A stretch of DNA of 64,000 nt from Verrucomicrobiota bacterium (GTDB lineage Bacteria; Verrucomicrobiota; Verrucomicrobiia; Limisphaerales; UBA9464). The stretch's first letter is position 1. Every line of letters begins with the position of its first letter. Shown one piece after another: positions 56,897 to 64,000 of the stretch. The position numbers and the translations under genes are program-made. The DNA is taken from positions 62,001 through 126,000 of the forward strand of contig VHCG01000001.1 of assembly GCA_016871805.1 (NCBI GenBank). The letters run 5' to 3'. The notes beneath the pieces were generated by a model. That model did not search any database. It saw only the letters and a program-made list of their open reading frames with translations, and was not told where the DNA came from.

Positions 56897-57820
56897 TCAG
56901 GCGGCTGCCGCCTCGGCCTCGGCGACCCTCTCCAGGACCACCTCGAGCATCCGGGGATCGCCGCCGATTCCCGGGGTGTACCAGACCCGTCGCCCCTCGC
57001 GGACGGTCGGATTGATCCAGGTCGGTTGCCCCGACCGCATCCGGGACGCCACCGTCCCGGGCGATTCCCCCAGCAACACGGGGATATCCTCCTGGCTGTG
57101 GAGTCCATCGCTCATGAAGAACGGGACGACCACCAGATCCCGGGTGGCACAGCTGCGGATGCAGTCCTCGATGCGGGGATCCTCCTCCATGAAGACGCCG
57201 TGGACCTCGGGGTAGATCCCCAGACGTCGGATCTCCGAGACCTGGACCTCCACCGACTTCCTGGAATTCTCGTTGTTGCCCGTTCCGTGGCCCGCGATGT
57301 ACAGGCTGGTCCGACCGGGCTCCGGCGGCGGGCCCGAGGCCCCGGGAAATTGGGTCACGATCCCACGAGCCCGTTCAAGGATCAGCTGCGTCATGGACAC
57401 GTGGGTGCCCACCGGAAGGCAGTAGTGCAGGTCCTGGTGCCCAACGCGTCGATGCCGGACCTGCTGGCCGGCGCCATCGATCATCCCCAGCTCCCTGGGG
57501 ATCACCTCCTCGGTGAAGTAGCCCTCGCTGATGAACATCGGGACGATGAAGACCCGGGAGGACACCACCTGCCGGAGGCATCCGCAGAATGTCGGCTGTT
57601 CCTTCCAGAACCCGGTCGCCACCTCGGCGAAGAGACCGGTCTGGCGGATCCGCGAAGCATGCTCCCGCACGGGTCGCGACGAGTCGGCGTTGAGGGTGGA
57701 TCCGTGACCGAGGAGTACTAGGGCCGCGTCGGGTCGACGACGCGGCTCCCCGGGTCCGATGACGGGGACCGGGCCTGGTTCCATGCCCACGGTCGGGGCC
57801 CCTTCGCCAGAAGCCCCCAT
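56897..57820 (-). CDS. Double CbiX/SirB-domain protein (sirohydrochlorin chelatase-like)
   Basis: Two halves with ALVLLGHGSTLNADSS and SLYIAGHGTGNNENSRKSVE; TGATG overlap with preceding response regulator. Confidence 0.85.
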   Translation of the reverse strand: MGASGEGAPTVGMEPGPVPVIGPGEPRRRPDAALVLLGHGSTLNADSSRPVREHASRIRQTGLFAEVATGFWKEQPTFCGCLRQVVSSRVFIVPMFISEGYFTEEVIPRELGMIDGAGQQVRHRRVGHQDLHYCLPVGTHVSMTQLILERARGIVTQFPGASGPPPEPGRTSLYIAGHGTGNNENSRKSVEVQVSEIRRLGIYPEVHGVFMEEDPRIEDCIRSCATRDLVVVPFFMSDGLHSQEDIPVLLGESPGTVASRMRSGQPTWINPTVREGRRVWYTPGIGGDPRMLEVVLERVAEAEAAAA

Positions 57821-58569
57821 CAACCCTGGGGAGGAAACGCGTTCTGCTCGGTCTCCATCCACCGGGTCGCGTAGTGGATCAGCGCGGTGGAGTCGGGGAG
57901 CTTGAGCTTGTCCTTGATGTGCCCACGGTGGACGTCGACGGTCTTCGGACTGAGCCCGAGCTCGCCGGCGATCTCGCGGGTGGTCATACCCTGACCAATG
58001 AGGCGGAAGACCTCGAACTCGCGGTCGGTGAGGTCGGCAATCCCGGGTTGCGAACCCGCCTTCGCGGGGCGGCCGAGGCTCTTGACCACCTTCTCCGTGA
58101 TGGCGGGGCTGAGGTAGATGCCGCCTCCGAGGACCTTGCGGATCGCGACCATCAGCTCCTCGCCACCGGCACCCTTCATGATGTAGCCCTGCGCTCCGGC
58201 CTTGAGGGCCCGTTCGGCATGGAGGTCCTCTCCGTTCATCGAGAGGATCAGGATGGCCAGATCCGGGAACCGGGCCCGGATGTCCCGGACGAATTCCATG
58301 CCGCTGCGGCCGGGCATGTTCATGTCGGTCAACAGCAGGTCGGGAACGATCTTGTCGAGCAGGGTCATCGCCTCGGCCGGATTTCCGGCCTCGCCACAGA
58401 TCTCGAGGTCGGACTCCCGGCCGATGAGCTGGGCAAGCCCGAGGCGCAGGATGGGATGGTCCTCGACCAGCATGACCCGCCGGCGCGGGGCCGCGGGCGG
58501 AGGTGGCGTCGCGGACGCGGCGGGTTCCGGGACGACGGCCTTGGTGTCGCGTTTGTCCTTCGATTTCAT
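57820..58569 (-). CDS. NarL/LuxR-family response regulator
   Basis: REC domain (VMLVEDHPILRLGLAQLI) plus LuxR HTH (LTDREFEVFRLIGQGMTTREIAGELGLSPKTVDVHRGHIKDKL). Confidence 0.93.
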   Translation of the reverse strand: MKSKDKRDTKAVVPEPAASATPPPPAAPRRRVMLVEDHPILRLGLAQLIGRESDLEICGEAGNPAEAMTLLDKIVPDLLLTDMNMPGRSGMEFVRDIRARFPDLAILILSMNGEDLHAERALKAGAQGYIMKGAGGEELMVAIRKVLGGGIYLSPAITEKVVKSLGRPAKAGSQPGIADLTDREFEVFRLIGQGMTTREIAGELGLSPKTVDVHRGHIKDKLKLPDSTALIHYATRWMETEQNAFPPQG

Positions 58570-61500
58570 AGGGCTTTCCACAGCGAGCAGGTGATGCGCA
58601 GTCCACGGCGTGGCGCCGGCCCGACCTCGAGGGTCGCACCGATCATCTCGGCGCGGTACTTCATGACCCGCATCCCCATGCCCATATCGTCACCATCGGG
58701 ACCGGAAAATCCACAACCATCATCTTCGACCGTGAGGACGATCCGCGGGGATCGCTGAGTGAGGCGGATCTGGACCCGACCCGCTCCGGAATGCTTGAGC
58801 GCGTTGTTCACCGCCTCCTGGGCGATCCGATAGAGCTGGGTCGCCACCGTGACCTCCTTCAGCAAAACCGGTCGCGGACACAGGAACCGGCACTGGACCC
58901 GGGTCATGGTCCGCACCCCCATCGCCAGCTCCTCGAGGGCACGCATCAGGCCATCGTCCTCGAGCGGGACCGGAGAGAGCCCATGGGAGAGGAGCCGCGC
59001 CTCGGTGACCGCCTCGCGGAGCTGATGCGTCAGGTTCTGGACCTGCGGCTGGAGGTTCGGGGCCTTGCTCCGGACATCGCTCGCAAGGGCCTGTCCGAAC
59101 AGCTCCAGCGCCGTGAGCCGCTGCCCCAGCCCGTCGTGGAGATCCCGTCCGAACCGACGCTGCTCCCGCTCCCGGGCCTCGAGCGCCTCCTTCTCCAGCT
59201 CAAGACGCTCGGTGATGTCCATCAGAGTCCCGACCACCTTCACCGTCCGACCCCGTCGGGCCGCCACCGCCTCCCCAACCACCTGGACATGCCGGACACG
59301 TCCGTCCGGACGCACGATCCGACACTGGAGGTCATAGCCGATGCCGCGTCGGATCAGCTGGGCGATCGTCGACTGCACGCGGGCCCGGTCATCGGAGTGG
59401 ACGAACCCGTCGACGAAACGTTCCAACGAGAGGCGTTCCTCGATGCCCAGACCCAGGATGCGGTAGACCTGGGTGGACCAGCTTGCGCGCGGCTCGGATT
59501 CGAGGATGACCTCGTAGCTGCCGAGCTGGGCGATCTTCTGGGCGCGCGCAAGACTGGCCTCGCTCCGCCGCAGGGCATCGGCGGTCTGCTTCCGATCGAT
59601 GAACTGGCCAATCTGTCCCCCGAGGCTGCCGACGAGCCCGATCAGCTCCGGATCGGCATCGAGGGAACGGGTGCTGTAGAAGACCATGACGGCGAGGGTC
59701 CGGCCCTCGAAGCGCGCCGGGAAGGCGAGTGCCGACCGCAGACGGGCCCTCGAGGCGGATCGGCGACGGCTGAACTCGGTGCACGACGACAGGTCCGGGA
59801 CCCAGTGGGGTTCGCCGGCGGGGAGGACCTGTCGGGCCAGCCATGCCGGATCTCCCAGACGGGGCGACCAGCCCCGGTTGATGAAGTCCGCGAGCGCAGG
59901 CGAAGGCGAATGCCACGCCCTCAGGATCCGCAGTCCACCCGTCTCCCCATCCGCCTCCCAGAACTCCCCCGCCCGCCACCCCAGCGACTCCGCAACCGAC
60001 CGCAGCAGCTCCGGGACGGCCTCGTCGAGACTCTGGGCCGCCGCCAGGATCCGTGCGGCCTCGAACTGCAGCCGCGCGAGGATCTCCCCCTTCCGCTGAT
60101 CGGTCACGTCCTGCAGCGTGCCGGCAACACGCTGGATCCGTCCGTTCGGAACAGCGAGCGTCTCCACAAGACTCTGGACATGCCGCACCGATCCATCGGG
60201 TCGCACCACGCGGAACTCCAGGGTGTAGCGGTCGCCTCGCCCCTCCATCCTGCGGATCGAGTCCCTGAGGCGTGCACGGTCGGCCGGGTACACATGCCGC
60301 CCGATGAACTCGTCGAGGCTCAACGGCCCCTGCGAGGGCTCGCGTCCGACAATGCGGAACATCTGGGCCGACCAGCGGAAGGACCGTTTGGAACGGAAGG
60401 AACCCGTGAAGCTGCCCAGGTGTGCGATCTCCTGGGCGCGCGCGAGTCCGCCCTCGCTCTCCCGAAGCGCCAGCTCCACGCGCTTGCGCTCGGTGATGTC
60501 CCGGACAAAGGCCGTGAAGATCGTACGACCCGGAAGCCGGACCTCGCTGAGGGACAGCTCGATGGGAAACTGCCGCCCGTCCTGGCGTCGTCCCTGCACC
60601 TCCCGTCCCGCACTCAGGGGCCACGCCCCCGGATCCCCCAGGCCACGGGGAATCAGCTGGCGCAGGGGCTTTCCGACAACCTGCGACTCGGACAGGCCGA
60701 AGATCTGCTCGGCGGACCGATTGAAGGATTCCACGACGCCGTCGATGTCGGTGGTGATGATCCCGTCGGCCGCCGTGTCGAGCATCGCCGACAGCCGTGC
60801 CTCCCGGTCCCTCACCTGCTCCTCCACCTGACGCTGGGCCGTGACCTCCAGGTGCGACACCACCGCGCCACCCCGTCCCCGGGTGAGGGGCGTCACACTC
60901 ATGAGGAACCACCGCCGCTGTCCCGGACACTGGCAGGAATACTCCGTCATGAACCCGGAGCTCTCACCCGAAAGGACCGCCGCGATGCCCGCCGCACCGG
61001 TCCGATCCGTCCGGGACCACACCGTCGAACGCCGACAGACCTCGAGATAGTCCGTGCCCACCGAGGATCTCGGCAGGTCCACCACACCCTGCTCGCGGGC
61101 GAAGCGATCCCACGCATCGTTCGTGGCGATCACCACGCCGTCCCGGTCCAGCAGCGCGATGTGGGACGGGAGGGCGCTGAGGATTTCCTGGTTGATCGCC
61201 TGCGCCTCGACCGCCTGGCGCCGCAAACGGGCCTCGGTCAGCTCCCGCTGCACCACCGACGGCAGACGGCCCAGGTCGTCCTTCCGCACGTAGTCGTGCG
61301 CCCCCGCCTTCATCAGGGCCACCGCGTTGTCCTCACCGATCGTCCCGGAGACCAGGATGAACGGGACGTCGAGCCGGGAGTCCTGGAACACCGACAGCGC
61401 ACCGCTGGCGCTGAACTGCGGGAGGTTGAAGTCCGAGATCACCAGACCCCACGGACTTGAATCGAGAGCCGCCTTGAGCTCCAGGGCGGTCTCGACGCGC

Positions 61501-61595
61501 CGCCAGTCCACCTCGTATCCCGCCCGGCGAAGGCTCCGGACCACCAGGTGGGTGTCGTTCTCGGAATCCTCGACGACCAGGACGCGAAGATGCAT
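58566..61595 (-). CDS. REC-PAS(n)-GAF-HisKA_3 hybrid sensor histidine kinase
   Basis: 1009 aa; N-terminal REC (VLVVEDSENDTHLVVRSLR), several PAS domains, GAF-like region, RFGRDLHDGLGQRLTAL (HisKA_3) and HATPase. Confidence 0.92.
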   Translation of the reverse strand: MHLRVLVVEDSENDTHLVVRSLRRAGYEVDWRRVETALELKAALDSSPWGLVISDFNLPQFSASGALSVFQDSRLDVPFILVSGTIGEDNAVALMKAGAHDYVRKDDLGRLPSVVQRELTEARLRRQAVEAQAINQEILSALPSHIALLDRDGVVIATNDAWDRFAREQGVVDLPRSSVGTDYLEVCRRSTVWSRTDRTGAAGIAAVLSGESSGFMTEYSCQCPGQRRWFLMSVTPLTRGRGGAVVSHLEVTAQRQVEEQVRDREARLSAMLDTAADGIITTDIDGVVESFNRSAEQIFGLSESQVVGKPLRQLIPRGLGDPGAWPLSAGREVQGRRQDGRQFPIELSLSEVRLPGRTIFTAFVRDITERKRVELALRESEGGLARAQEIAHLGSFTGSFRSKRSFRWSAQMFRIVGREPSQGPLSLDEFIGRHVYPADRARLRDSIRRMEGRGDRYTLEFRVVRPDGSVRHVQSLVETLAVPNGRIQRVAGTLQDVTDQRKGEILARLQFEAARILAAAQSLDEAVPELLRSVAESLGWRAGEFWEADGETGGLRILRAWHSPSPALADFINRGWSPRLGDPAWLARQVLPAGEPHWVPDLSSCTEFSRRRSASRARLRSALAFPARFEGRTLAVMVFYSTRSLDADPELIGLVGSLGGQIGQFIDRKQTADALRRSEASLARAQKIAQLGSYEVILESEPRASWSTQVYRILGLGIEERLSLERFVDGFVHSDDRARVQSTIAQLIRRGIGYDLQCRIVRPDGRVRHVQVVGEAVAARRGRTVKVVGTLMDITERLELEKEALEAREREQRRFGRDLHDGLGQRLTALELFGQALASDVRSKAPNLQPQVQNLTHQLREAVTEARLLSHGLSPVPLEDDGLMRALEELAMGVRTMTRVQCRFLCPRPVLLKEVTVATQLYRIAQEAVNNALKHSGAGRVQIRLTQRSPRIVLTVEDDGCGFSGPDGDDMGMGMRVMKYRAEMIGATLEVGPAPRRGLRITCSLWKAL

Positions 61596-61803: not shown

Positions 61804-64000
61804 TCAGGGACCCACCACAACGGTCAGGGAGGTCGCCCGATTCAGCGCCGGAGTGTACCGGGCGTTCTCAAGGGACACCCCGGTCACCGTGAAGGTGAGC
61901 TTCGTCGACCGGGTCACACGGGGGGAGGCGATCTCCACGACGCCGTTCGCATCCGTCTTGATGCCCCGGCTCTGGGTCAGCGATCCAAGCCAGGAACCGG
62001 TCACAGCCGCCCCGGCAACGGGGGATCCGTCAGGATGGGTGATGCGGACTGTCGCGTACGCCACCCGGGAGAGACCACTCGCCGCGGTTCGGACCGTGAT
62101 CGATCCGATGCAGATCTCCCGTTGTGCGACCGTGATCGAGGTCGTGACGGAGGATTCGGCTCCCTGGTTGTCGACCACCGTGAGGGTCACCCGATGGACT
62201 CCGGGGCGACTGAACTCCCGGCGTACCATCGGCCCCGTCACCACCCGGCCATCCCCGAAATCCCAACGATGGGCGATCACCGCTCCATCCGGATCCACCG
62301 ACCGGGATCCGTCGAACACCACCGCCAACGGGGCATATCCCGAGGTGACATCGGTGGAGATCACGGCCTGGGGCGCGAGATTCGGAGGGGTGATCCGAAG
62401 ACCGACCGCACTGGAATGGGACAGTCCAGCCTCATCCGTGACCGTCAGGGTCACGCCGTAGGATCCCGGGATCTGGAAGGCGTGGGTCACCGTCACGCCC
62501 TCGGTCCGGGTGCCATCCCCGAAATCCCAGACGTAGGTCGCGAGGGTGTCGTCCTGATCGAACGAAAGACTGCCGTCGAAGACGATCGGGACAAACGCCT
62601 CGGCGACCGAAGGCGTGGGCCCGATCACGGAGACGGGCGGGACCTGTCGGACCGGTTCCGGAACTCTGCCGGAGACCGTGTACCGCCCCAGCGAGCCGTA
62701 GCCATTCCCGCTGACCACCAAGAAATACCGGCCCGCCGGGAGAACGAGATCGAACGAGGCGCCGAGGACGTCGACCGGAGCGGATTCGGCCACCAGGGCC
62801 CCGGTGGAATCGAGGAGCCGGGCCTCCACGTCGAGATTCGCGCCGACCTCCTCGGGGGACACCTGGATGCCCACGGCACCCTGTCCCGACTCGAAGGCAA
62901 ACACATCACGATCATCGGCCTCGCCTACGAGGCCGCCGGCGGTCCAGCGGGTTCCCAGCGGAAGGTGGCTGGCGGCATCCACGGAGTCGCCATGGTCATC
63001 GTCGCGGAGCGTCAATCCTGCCGCCTGGATCCGTGCGATGTCATCCTGGGCGGAAGACGCCCCGGGATACTCCCCACGGCTCCAGTGCGACAGGGAGCGG
63101 ACCGAGGCGTCACCCATGATCGGGGCCCATCCGGTATCCCCCGAACCGATCCCGGCAAAGGGCGTGGACTCACCCACCAAGGCATGGTGGAGAAGCCCCA
63201 GCGAATGGCCCACCTGATGTGAGATCGCCTCTGCAATGGCCTTGGTCTGGTCGAGCCCCAGCACGTCGGCAAACACCAGCGCGGTGTTCCACCGAGGCCC
63301 CGTCGACCCGAACGAACCCAGGTAGGAGACCCCCGAATATCCTGGAAAGGACTGACCCATCGGCGTGATCAGCACCCGGACTCCGCGTCCGGCCAGGACC
63401 GCCTCCCCGGCCGCAGCCGCGGTGGTGACATCGACATCAAACGGGGCGAAATCCTCGGAGACCCGCTTCCAGATCTCCACGATCTGGGCCCGCTCCACGG
63501 CGTTGAGGCCCTGGGGCTGGCCATCCCGATCGAAGGCCGGTGCGGTGAATCTCTGGCCCTGGAACCAGGACTCGTTCCAGACCGTCCCGGAGACGGTGGC
63601 CCCATTGAAATCCAGCTCGATGACCCTCGCGGATCCCGGGCTACTGTGGAGCTCCACGGACTCTCCATCGATGGATGGATCAGCCGTCGACGGACCCGTT
63701 TCCCCACCCAGGGTCAATACCCCGACCGAACCCTTTAGGCCACGGATCGGAGGCGATGGGATGTCCACCATCGGACTGACCCCCGCCCGCACGGGAGGCG
63801 ACGGGATGTCCGTGTTGAAGGTCCGGGCAGCCCCATCGGCCACAGGGCGAATCGGAGGGGATGGAATGTCGGTGCCAGGATTGACGACACCTCCCCGAAT
63901 CGGAGGGGACGGAATGTCGGTGTTCAGGTTCTCGCCTGCCCCATCCGTCACCCGTCGAACCGGGGGCGAAGGGATATCGGCACCAGGGTTGGAGCCGCCG
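61804..64000 (-). CDS. PKD-domain protein with metzincin-like domain and N-terminal DIPSPP(I/V)R repeats (5' end outside the window)
   Basis: Open frame extends past the window edge; two PKD domains (YVWDFGDGTRTEGVTVTHAF, HRWDFGDGRVV), HQVGHSLGLLHH plus GWAPIMG Met-turn-like motif. Confidence 0.85.
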   Translation of the reverse strand, partial: GGSNPGADIPSPPVRRVTDGAGENLNTDIPSPPIRGGVVNPGTDIPSPPIRPVADGAARTFNTDIPSPPVRAGVSPMVDIPSPPIRGLKGSVGVLTLGGETGPSTADPSIDGESVELHSSPGSARVIELDFNGATVSGTVWNESWFQGQRFTAPAFDRDGQPQGLNAVERAQIVEIWKRVSEDFAPFDVDVTTAAAAGEAVLAGRGVRVLITPMGQSFPGYSGVSYLGSFGSTGPRWNTALVFADVLGLDQTKAIAEAISHQVGHSLGLLHHALVGESTPFAGIGSGDTGWAPIMGDASVRSLSHWSRGEYPGASSAQDDIARIQAAGLTLRDDDHGDSVDAASHLPLGTRWTAGGLVGEADDRDVFAFESGQGAVGIQVSPEEVGANLDVEARLLDSTGALVAESAPVDVLGASFDLVLPAGRYFLVVSGNGYGSLGRYTVSGRVPEPVRQVPPVSVIGPTPSVAEAFVPIVFDGSLSFDQDDTLATYVWDFGDGTRTEGVTVTHAFQIPGSYGVTLTVTDEAGLSHSSAVGLRITPPNLAPQAVISTDVTSGYAPLAVVFDGSRSVDPDGAVIAHRWDFGDGRVVTGPMVRREFSRPGVHRVTLTVVDNQGAESSVTTSITVAQREICIGSITVRTAASGLSRVAYATVRITHPDGSPVAGAAVTGSWLGSLTQSRGIKTDANGVVEIASPRVTRSTKLTFTVTGVSLENARYTPALNRATSLTVVVGP
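63742..63978 (-). repeat. Coding tandem repeat, DIPSPP(I/V)R
   Basis: Five 24-nt units at 63742, 63787, 63847, 63895 and 63955; alternating spacing gives a 108-nt (36-aa) super-repeat; array may extend beyond the window. Confidence 0.9.

Follow-up and report, generated by a model that had tools for sequence, protein, structure and literature searches.

Short proline-rich cores that are conserved between tolerant spacers are the usual anatomy of multivalent docking arrays, and the EVH1-binding repeats of Listeria ActA are a short linear-motif array with such conserved proline-rich cores. Reprolysin-like metzincins that carry PPC and PKD domains form an uncurated bacterial family that is found in Verrucomicrobiota, Planctomycetota, Cyanobacteriota and Pseudomonadota. 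Inactive bacterial metzincins are hardly present in the literature that we searched. Human ADAM7, in which the catalytic glutamate is replaced by glutamine (HQLGHNLGMQHD), is listed among the inactive metallopeptidases, and ADAM pseudopeptidases act through protein–protein interactions (PMC11266112).

Here we describe an array of DIPSPP(V/I)R octapeptides on a predicted exported protein of a Verrucomicrobiota bacterium. As in ActA, a short conserved proline-rich core is repeated in a region that is predicted to be unstructured, and multivalent docking may be the result; unlike in ActA, the motif is a different one, and the likeness lies in a possible way of working and not in descent. With the uncurated bacterial family the protein shares its N-terminal domain, a zincin domain with a WAPIMG Met-turn block (about 33–48% identity), a PPC-like domain and a PKD/Ig tail, but it differs in the change of HE to HQ, in a diverged loop after the motif and in a 19-unit array that replaces a linker of typically 28 amino acids (aa). 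The exchange of the general base Glu for Gln, with zinc ligands and Met-turn kept, is the same as in the inactive ADAM metzincins (PMC11266112); these, unlike the array protein, are animal membrane proteins with disintegrin domains and no DIPSPP-type array, and the kinship is at the level of the superfamily only.

The DNA analysed (the window) is a 64,000-nucleotide (nt) stretch, positions 62001–126000 of contig C1 of genome G000. Its edge (G000:C1:126000) falls inside the array, and the whole open reading frame (ORF) was read from C1:122000–132000 (locus L007). The initial annotation had noted five DIPSPP(I/V)R units at the end of the window, in a proline-rich sequence with higher-order repetition that might run on past the edge. 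All five are present, on the minus strand, and a whole-genome search for [DH]IPSPP[IV]R revealed 14 more units upstream. The full array, proline-rich and repetitive at a higher order, has 19 units in about 930 nt (C1:125742–126668), a copy number that is provisional because near-identical 150-nt copies may be collapsed in the draft assembly (124 contigs). It occupies residues 137–445 of a 1,090-aa ORF that starts at TTG, or 106–414 of the 1,059-aa protein that starts at an ATG at residue 32. The exact pattern DIPSPP(V/I)R matches 18 times in this genome, and its reversed control matches 0 times.

Successive units are spaced by 15, 16 or 20 aa (20, 16, 20 and 15 aa among the five units in the window). 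Both intervals from which a 108-nt (36-aa) period had been proposed are exact, but this period (20+16) is local to the C-terminal side of the array, which includes the part in the window and is more diverged. The dominant higher-order repeat found by TRF is 50 aa or 150 nt long (3.9 copies, 97% match) and lies on the N-terminal side as blocks of 15+15+20. The spacers between octapeptides are either 7 aa long and Gly-rich or 12 aa long, and each octapeptide ends in Arg, followed mostly by Gly-Gly or Arg-Val.

Table 1. Features of the array gene, in window coordinates unless stated otherwise.
Feature	Position	Strand	Basis
DIPSPP(I/V)R array, C-terminal portion (5 of the 19 units, all complete)	63742–64000	−	unit search
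The five complete units in the window	63955–63978, 63895–63918, 63847–63870, 63787–63810, 63742–63765	−	
3′ part of the array gene, stop codon at 61804	61804–64000	−	ORF
Full array gene, ATG start, 1,059 aa	reaches G000:C1:126983 (window 64983)	−	ORF
Reprolysin-like metzincin domain, apparently catalytically dead	62974–63678	−	alignment, models
Pseudo-active site HQVGHSLGLLH (CAT CAG GTG GGC CAT ...)	63187–63219	−	homolog alignment
Met-turn IMG within WAPIMG, kept	63112–63120	−	coordinates derived from alignment position
PPC-like beta-sandwich domain, approximate boundaries	62659–62995	−	Pfam matches of relatives, structure model
Two PKD domains (PF18911/PF00801), approximate boundaries	62130–62650	−	Pfam
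Ig-like domain at the C terminus; CarboxypepD_reg matched weakly, under the curated cut-off	61804–62130	−	Pfam

Units that differ in DNA encode almost the same peptide. Among 14 distinct DNA versions of the octapeptide core, pS was 0.617 and pN 0.042 (ratio 0.068), with 53, 0 and 408 pairwise differences at codon positions 1, 2 and 3, respectively. By column-by-column minimal counting, third positions carry 16 of the 18 extra base types in the core, an excess over one-third with a binomial P of about 2e-6, which is no more than indicative, since units that share an array are not independent. In the 7-aa linkers the three codon positions vary 7/6/13 times and in the 12-aa linkers 7/9/10 times; the octapeptide hardly changes across 28 units drawn from the two species, and the spacers vary at all codon positions. 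Silent differences have persisted, and gene conversion would have erased them too; therefore, as read from these counts, it is the peptide that selection has kept while the DNA drifted. A function for the motif is therefore probable, most likely that of a docking site in many copies, although it could instead have been selected because it keeps the protein soluble, stiffens it as polyproline or resists proteolysis. The array is thus a clear case of a partly recently expanded bacterial repeat in which selection at the peptide level is readable from silent divergence among its own units. We take the long plus-strand ORFs opposite the array (window 63365–64000; 434 aa within L007) to be antisense artefacts, because the variation among units concentrates at third positions of the minus-strand frame.

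The protein read from the ATG begins with MKLPATRRFRALERAAALSVLILMAGRAG, which by eye resembles a signal peptide, and we infer that it is exported. A small N-terminal domain, the array, a reprolysin-like metzincin domain, a PPC-like domain, two PKD domains and an Ig-like C terminus follow. Pfam detected the two PKD domains at high confidence (PF18911, 138.8 bits over two stretches against a curated cut-off of 27), with mostly sub-threshold matches elsewhere. The N-terminal domain, which has the pattern AIxxLGxxLPxVAxxYG...DxxGRLxY in common with the homologs, matched the LysM model at 13.6 bits (E 0.066; curated cut-off 20.9). Reprolysin models (Reprolysin_5 and Reprolysin_3) match 16 of the 18 members of our alignment, the array protein itself falling below Pfam detection; a profile search of the PDB found metzincins, and 38–43% identity to the HE-bearing members of the alignment supports its membership of the metzincin superfamily by descent. 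PPC (PF04151) is matched in 10 of the 18 aligned relatives and not in the row of the array protein. Its AlphaFold model (pLDDT 75.8, pTM 0.80) points to a PPC fold: in Foldseek it matched the collagen-binding domains of ColG and ColH and the PPC domain of Bacillus anthracis collagenase (E about 2e-6 to 8e-6), with weaker matches to astacin and snake-venom reprolysin.

Of the 15 distinct family rows in which the linker from the N-terminal to the zincin domain was measured, 9 have a length of 28 aa (range 28–53). In the array protein this linker is about 340 aa long and holds the array. This segment was modelled without structure (pLDDT about 25–33), and we predict that it is intrinsically disordered, low pLDDT being weak evidence of disorder where the segment is repetitive and just two array sequences are aligned.

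Within the metzincin domain, the zinc-ligand histidines H174, H178 and H184 (numbered as in alignment A1) do not vary, and HQVGHSLGLLH contains all three; the Met-turn methionine, M208, is likewise an invariant column. The catalytic Glu of HExxH is replaced by Gln in the array protein and in the one ortholog found, and every further homolog row in which the motif is covered reads HE. Both species use the same Gln codon, CAG, even though their silent sites have diverged (dS about 0.25), which rules out a sequencing error. The loop that follows the motif has also diverged (TPFAGIGSG versus YYxGHGSG in relatives) and was modelled at low confidence. With the catalytic Glu gone, the alignment argues against classing the protein as an active metzincin peptidase, and the domain appears to be catalytically dead; a metalloprotease with this exchange may keep residual activity.

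The domain is nevertheless constrained. In the 644 codons that follow the array, comparison with the ortholog gives a dN/dS of 0.13. The zincin domain taken by itself has a value of 0.159 across the species pair (Nd/Sd, Fisher P 6e-10), and an active pair of paralogs from the same two genomes has almost the same one, 0.160; therefore, the gene is not decaying. The locus thus ties a repeat to a metalloprotease homolog that lacks its catalytic residue yet is under selection. Paralogs with HEAGHTLGLSHDG are retained in both genomes. Each genome has two neighbouring metzincin genes of the same family (G000:C8:70598–74531, L145; G001:C40, L147), with HEAGH intact where covered; part of the second copy on C8 (C8:73425–74531) is a separate 444-aa frame. 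The same genus also has a second metzincin subfamily at a greater distance, HEVGHALGLRHD / HEVGHTLGLSHDG (G000:C14:65541–66347, L146; G001:C206, L150; G003:C154, L026), on large proteins with stretches that by eye resemble cadherin and PA14.

The nearest relative in the collections is a Verrucomicrobiales metagenome-assembled genome (SYEM01000234.1; 94% protein identity), and contig C199 of the same-genus genome G001 gives the same match. The ortholog in G001 has at least nine units before the zincin domain, a lower bound because the contig begins inside the array; its N-terminal domain was not found elsewhere in the G001 assembly, except in paralogs. The order of units differs between the two species, and the G000 array has an extra GGVVNPGT unit near its end, in support of variation in register and in copy number, the latter as had been suggested from the window. 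Extension upstream and comparison with homologues, the checks proposed at the outset, produced 14 further units and an orthologous array in a second species; together with the silent-site pattern, the 19 units and this ortholog rule out a chance or purely local duplication.

Among 78 genomes of relatives searched, the exact DIPSPP(V/I)R pattern was present in two, G000 and G001, and a phylum-wide sample of 387 further genomes had none. The array was absent from the plasmid records and the viral contigs searched. A sample of 244 further genomes of the order gave no more than three weak matches (G572, G605 and G619; E 0.0009–0.003), which we treat as chance; in six-frame translation, L156 (G619) had no proline-rich frame by our filter, and L157 and L158 had no visible DIPSPP-type array. 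Spread of the array onto other proteins, phages or plasmids was thus not found in the genome, plasmid and viral searches. A sequence search of the PDB with the array returned one insignificant match (E 3.2), and a literature search for the motif one irrelevant text match. In the tree, the array-bearing pair is on the longest stem (1.12) among the HE-bearing homologs; deep forks are weak and carry a long-branch warning, so we claim no closer sister. By its occurrence in these searches the array is limited to two species of one genus, and it seems to have arisen recently, within one small lineage.

The explanation that we favour, with about even confidence, is a disordered, multivalent display of DIPSPP(V/I)R on a non-catalytic exported scaffold or adhesin-like protein, the octapeptides of which would bind a putative partner. 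The array lies in the stretch that joins the small N-terminal domain to the metzincin domain, and the metzincin domain has lost its catalytic base (HExxH to HQxxH) but retains its zinc ligands and Met-turn and is still under purifying selection. Units would have spread through unequal exchange of the 50-aa block and then been kept by selection on the peptide; each octapeptide would dock a putative partner, with copy number setting avidity and reach. A proline-rich core with tolerant spacers, on a carrier without a catalytic base, is why we favour a non-catalytic docking scaffold. The architecture, the missing Glu, the constraint on octapeptide and domain and the occurrence in two species are read directly from the sequences, and partner binding and avidity enter the proposal as hypothesis only; the motif itself is available for testing it. 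The initial annotation had offered a stalk or a multivalent ligand, and both roles are compatible with the data.

That the array is no more than a stiff and extended proline-rich spacer, keeping the N-terminal domain off the pseudoprotease and PKD domains and binding no specific partner, is possible but rather unlikely. Such a spacer would account for an array that lies exactly in an interdomain linker, is rich in Pro and Gly, is modelled as unstructured and differs in unit order between the two species; a plain spacer should, however, drift and tolerate D/E, S/T and R/K swaps, and the octapeptide is nearly invariant. The terminal Arg of every unit, followed mostly by Gly-Gly or Arg-Val, suggests another reading, raised in the initial annotation as a processing site, that the units are cut, for example after Arg (...PPVR/GG or ...PPVR/RV), by a paralogous or other protease that releases the N-terminal domain or short peptides. 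Paralogs with intact HExxH are encoded in the same genome and the array is located where a prodomain would be cut, but Pro-rich sites are usually poor substrates, a single site would suffice for prodomain release and relatives manage without an array, and we consider cleavage improbable.

Less probable still is an array that serves as an uncleavable pseudosubstrate of its own or a paralogous metzincin cleft. The domain would then have become a peptide-binding module for the array in its own linker, linking molecules head to tail in a self-assembling extracellular protein or inhibiting active paralogs. Loss of Glu with zinc ligands and Met-turn kept could preserve a peptide-binding cleft without turnover, and array and Glu loss coincide in the only two species found; this co-occurrence is, however, that of one lineage, the diverged and poorly modelled loop after the motif means that the cleft may be gone, and the monomer model does not place the array (pLDDT below 35). 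Neutral growth of the repeat through slippage or unequal exchange, in a gene that is decaying, to which we give the least credence of all, would fit the 97% similarity of the 150-nt copies, a sign that part of the array expanded recently, and the lost active-site Glu. Against it stand an open frame of 1,090 codons, the low dN/dS after the array and divergent units whose differences are nearly all silent.

The array gene is followed directly downstream, on its own strand, by a gene for a 1,009-aa hybrid sensor kinase (window 58566–61595, minus strand; receiver, several PAS, GAF, HisKA_3 and HATPase domains), which adjoins a likely LuxR-type response regulator gene (57820–58581). Upstream of the array gene, a divergent gene on the plus strand (L007:5243–6382) specifies a protein whose C-terminal domain is a receiver (PF00072).
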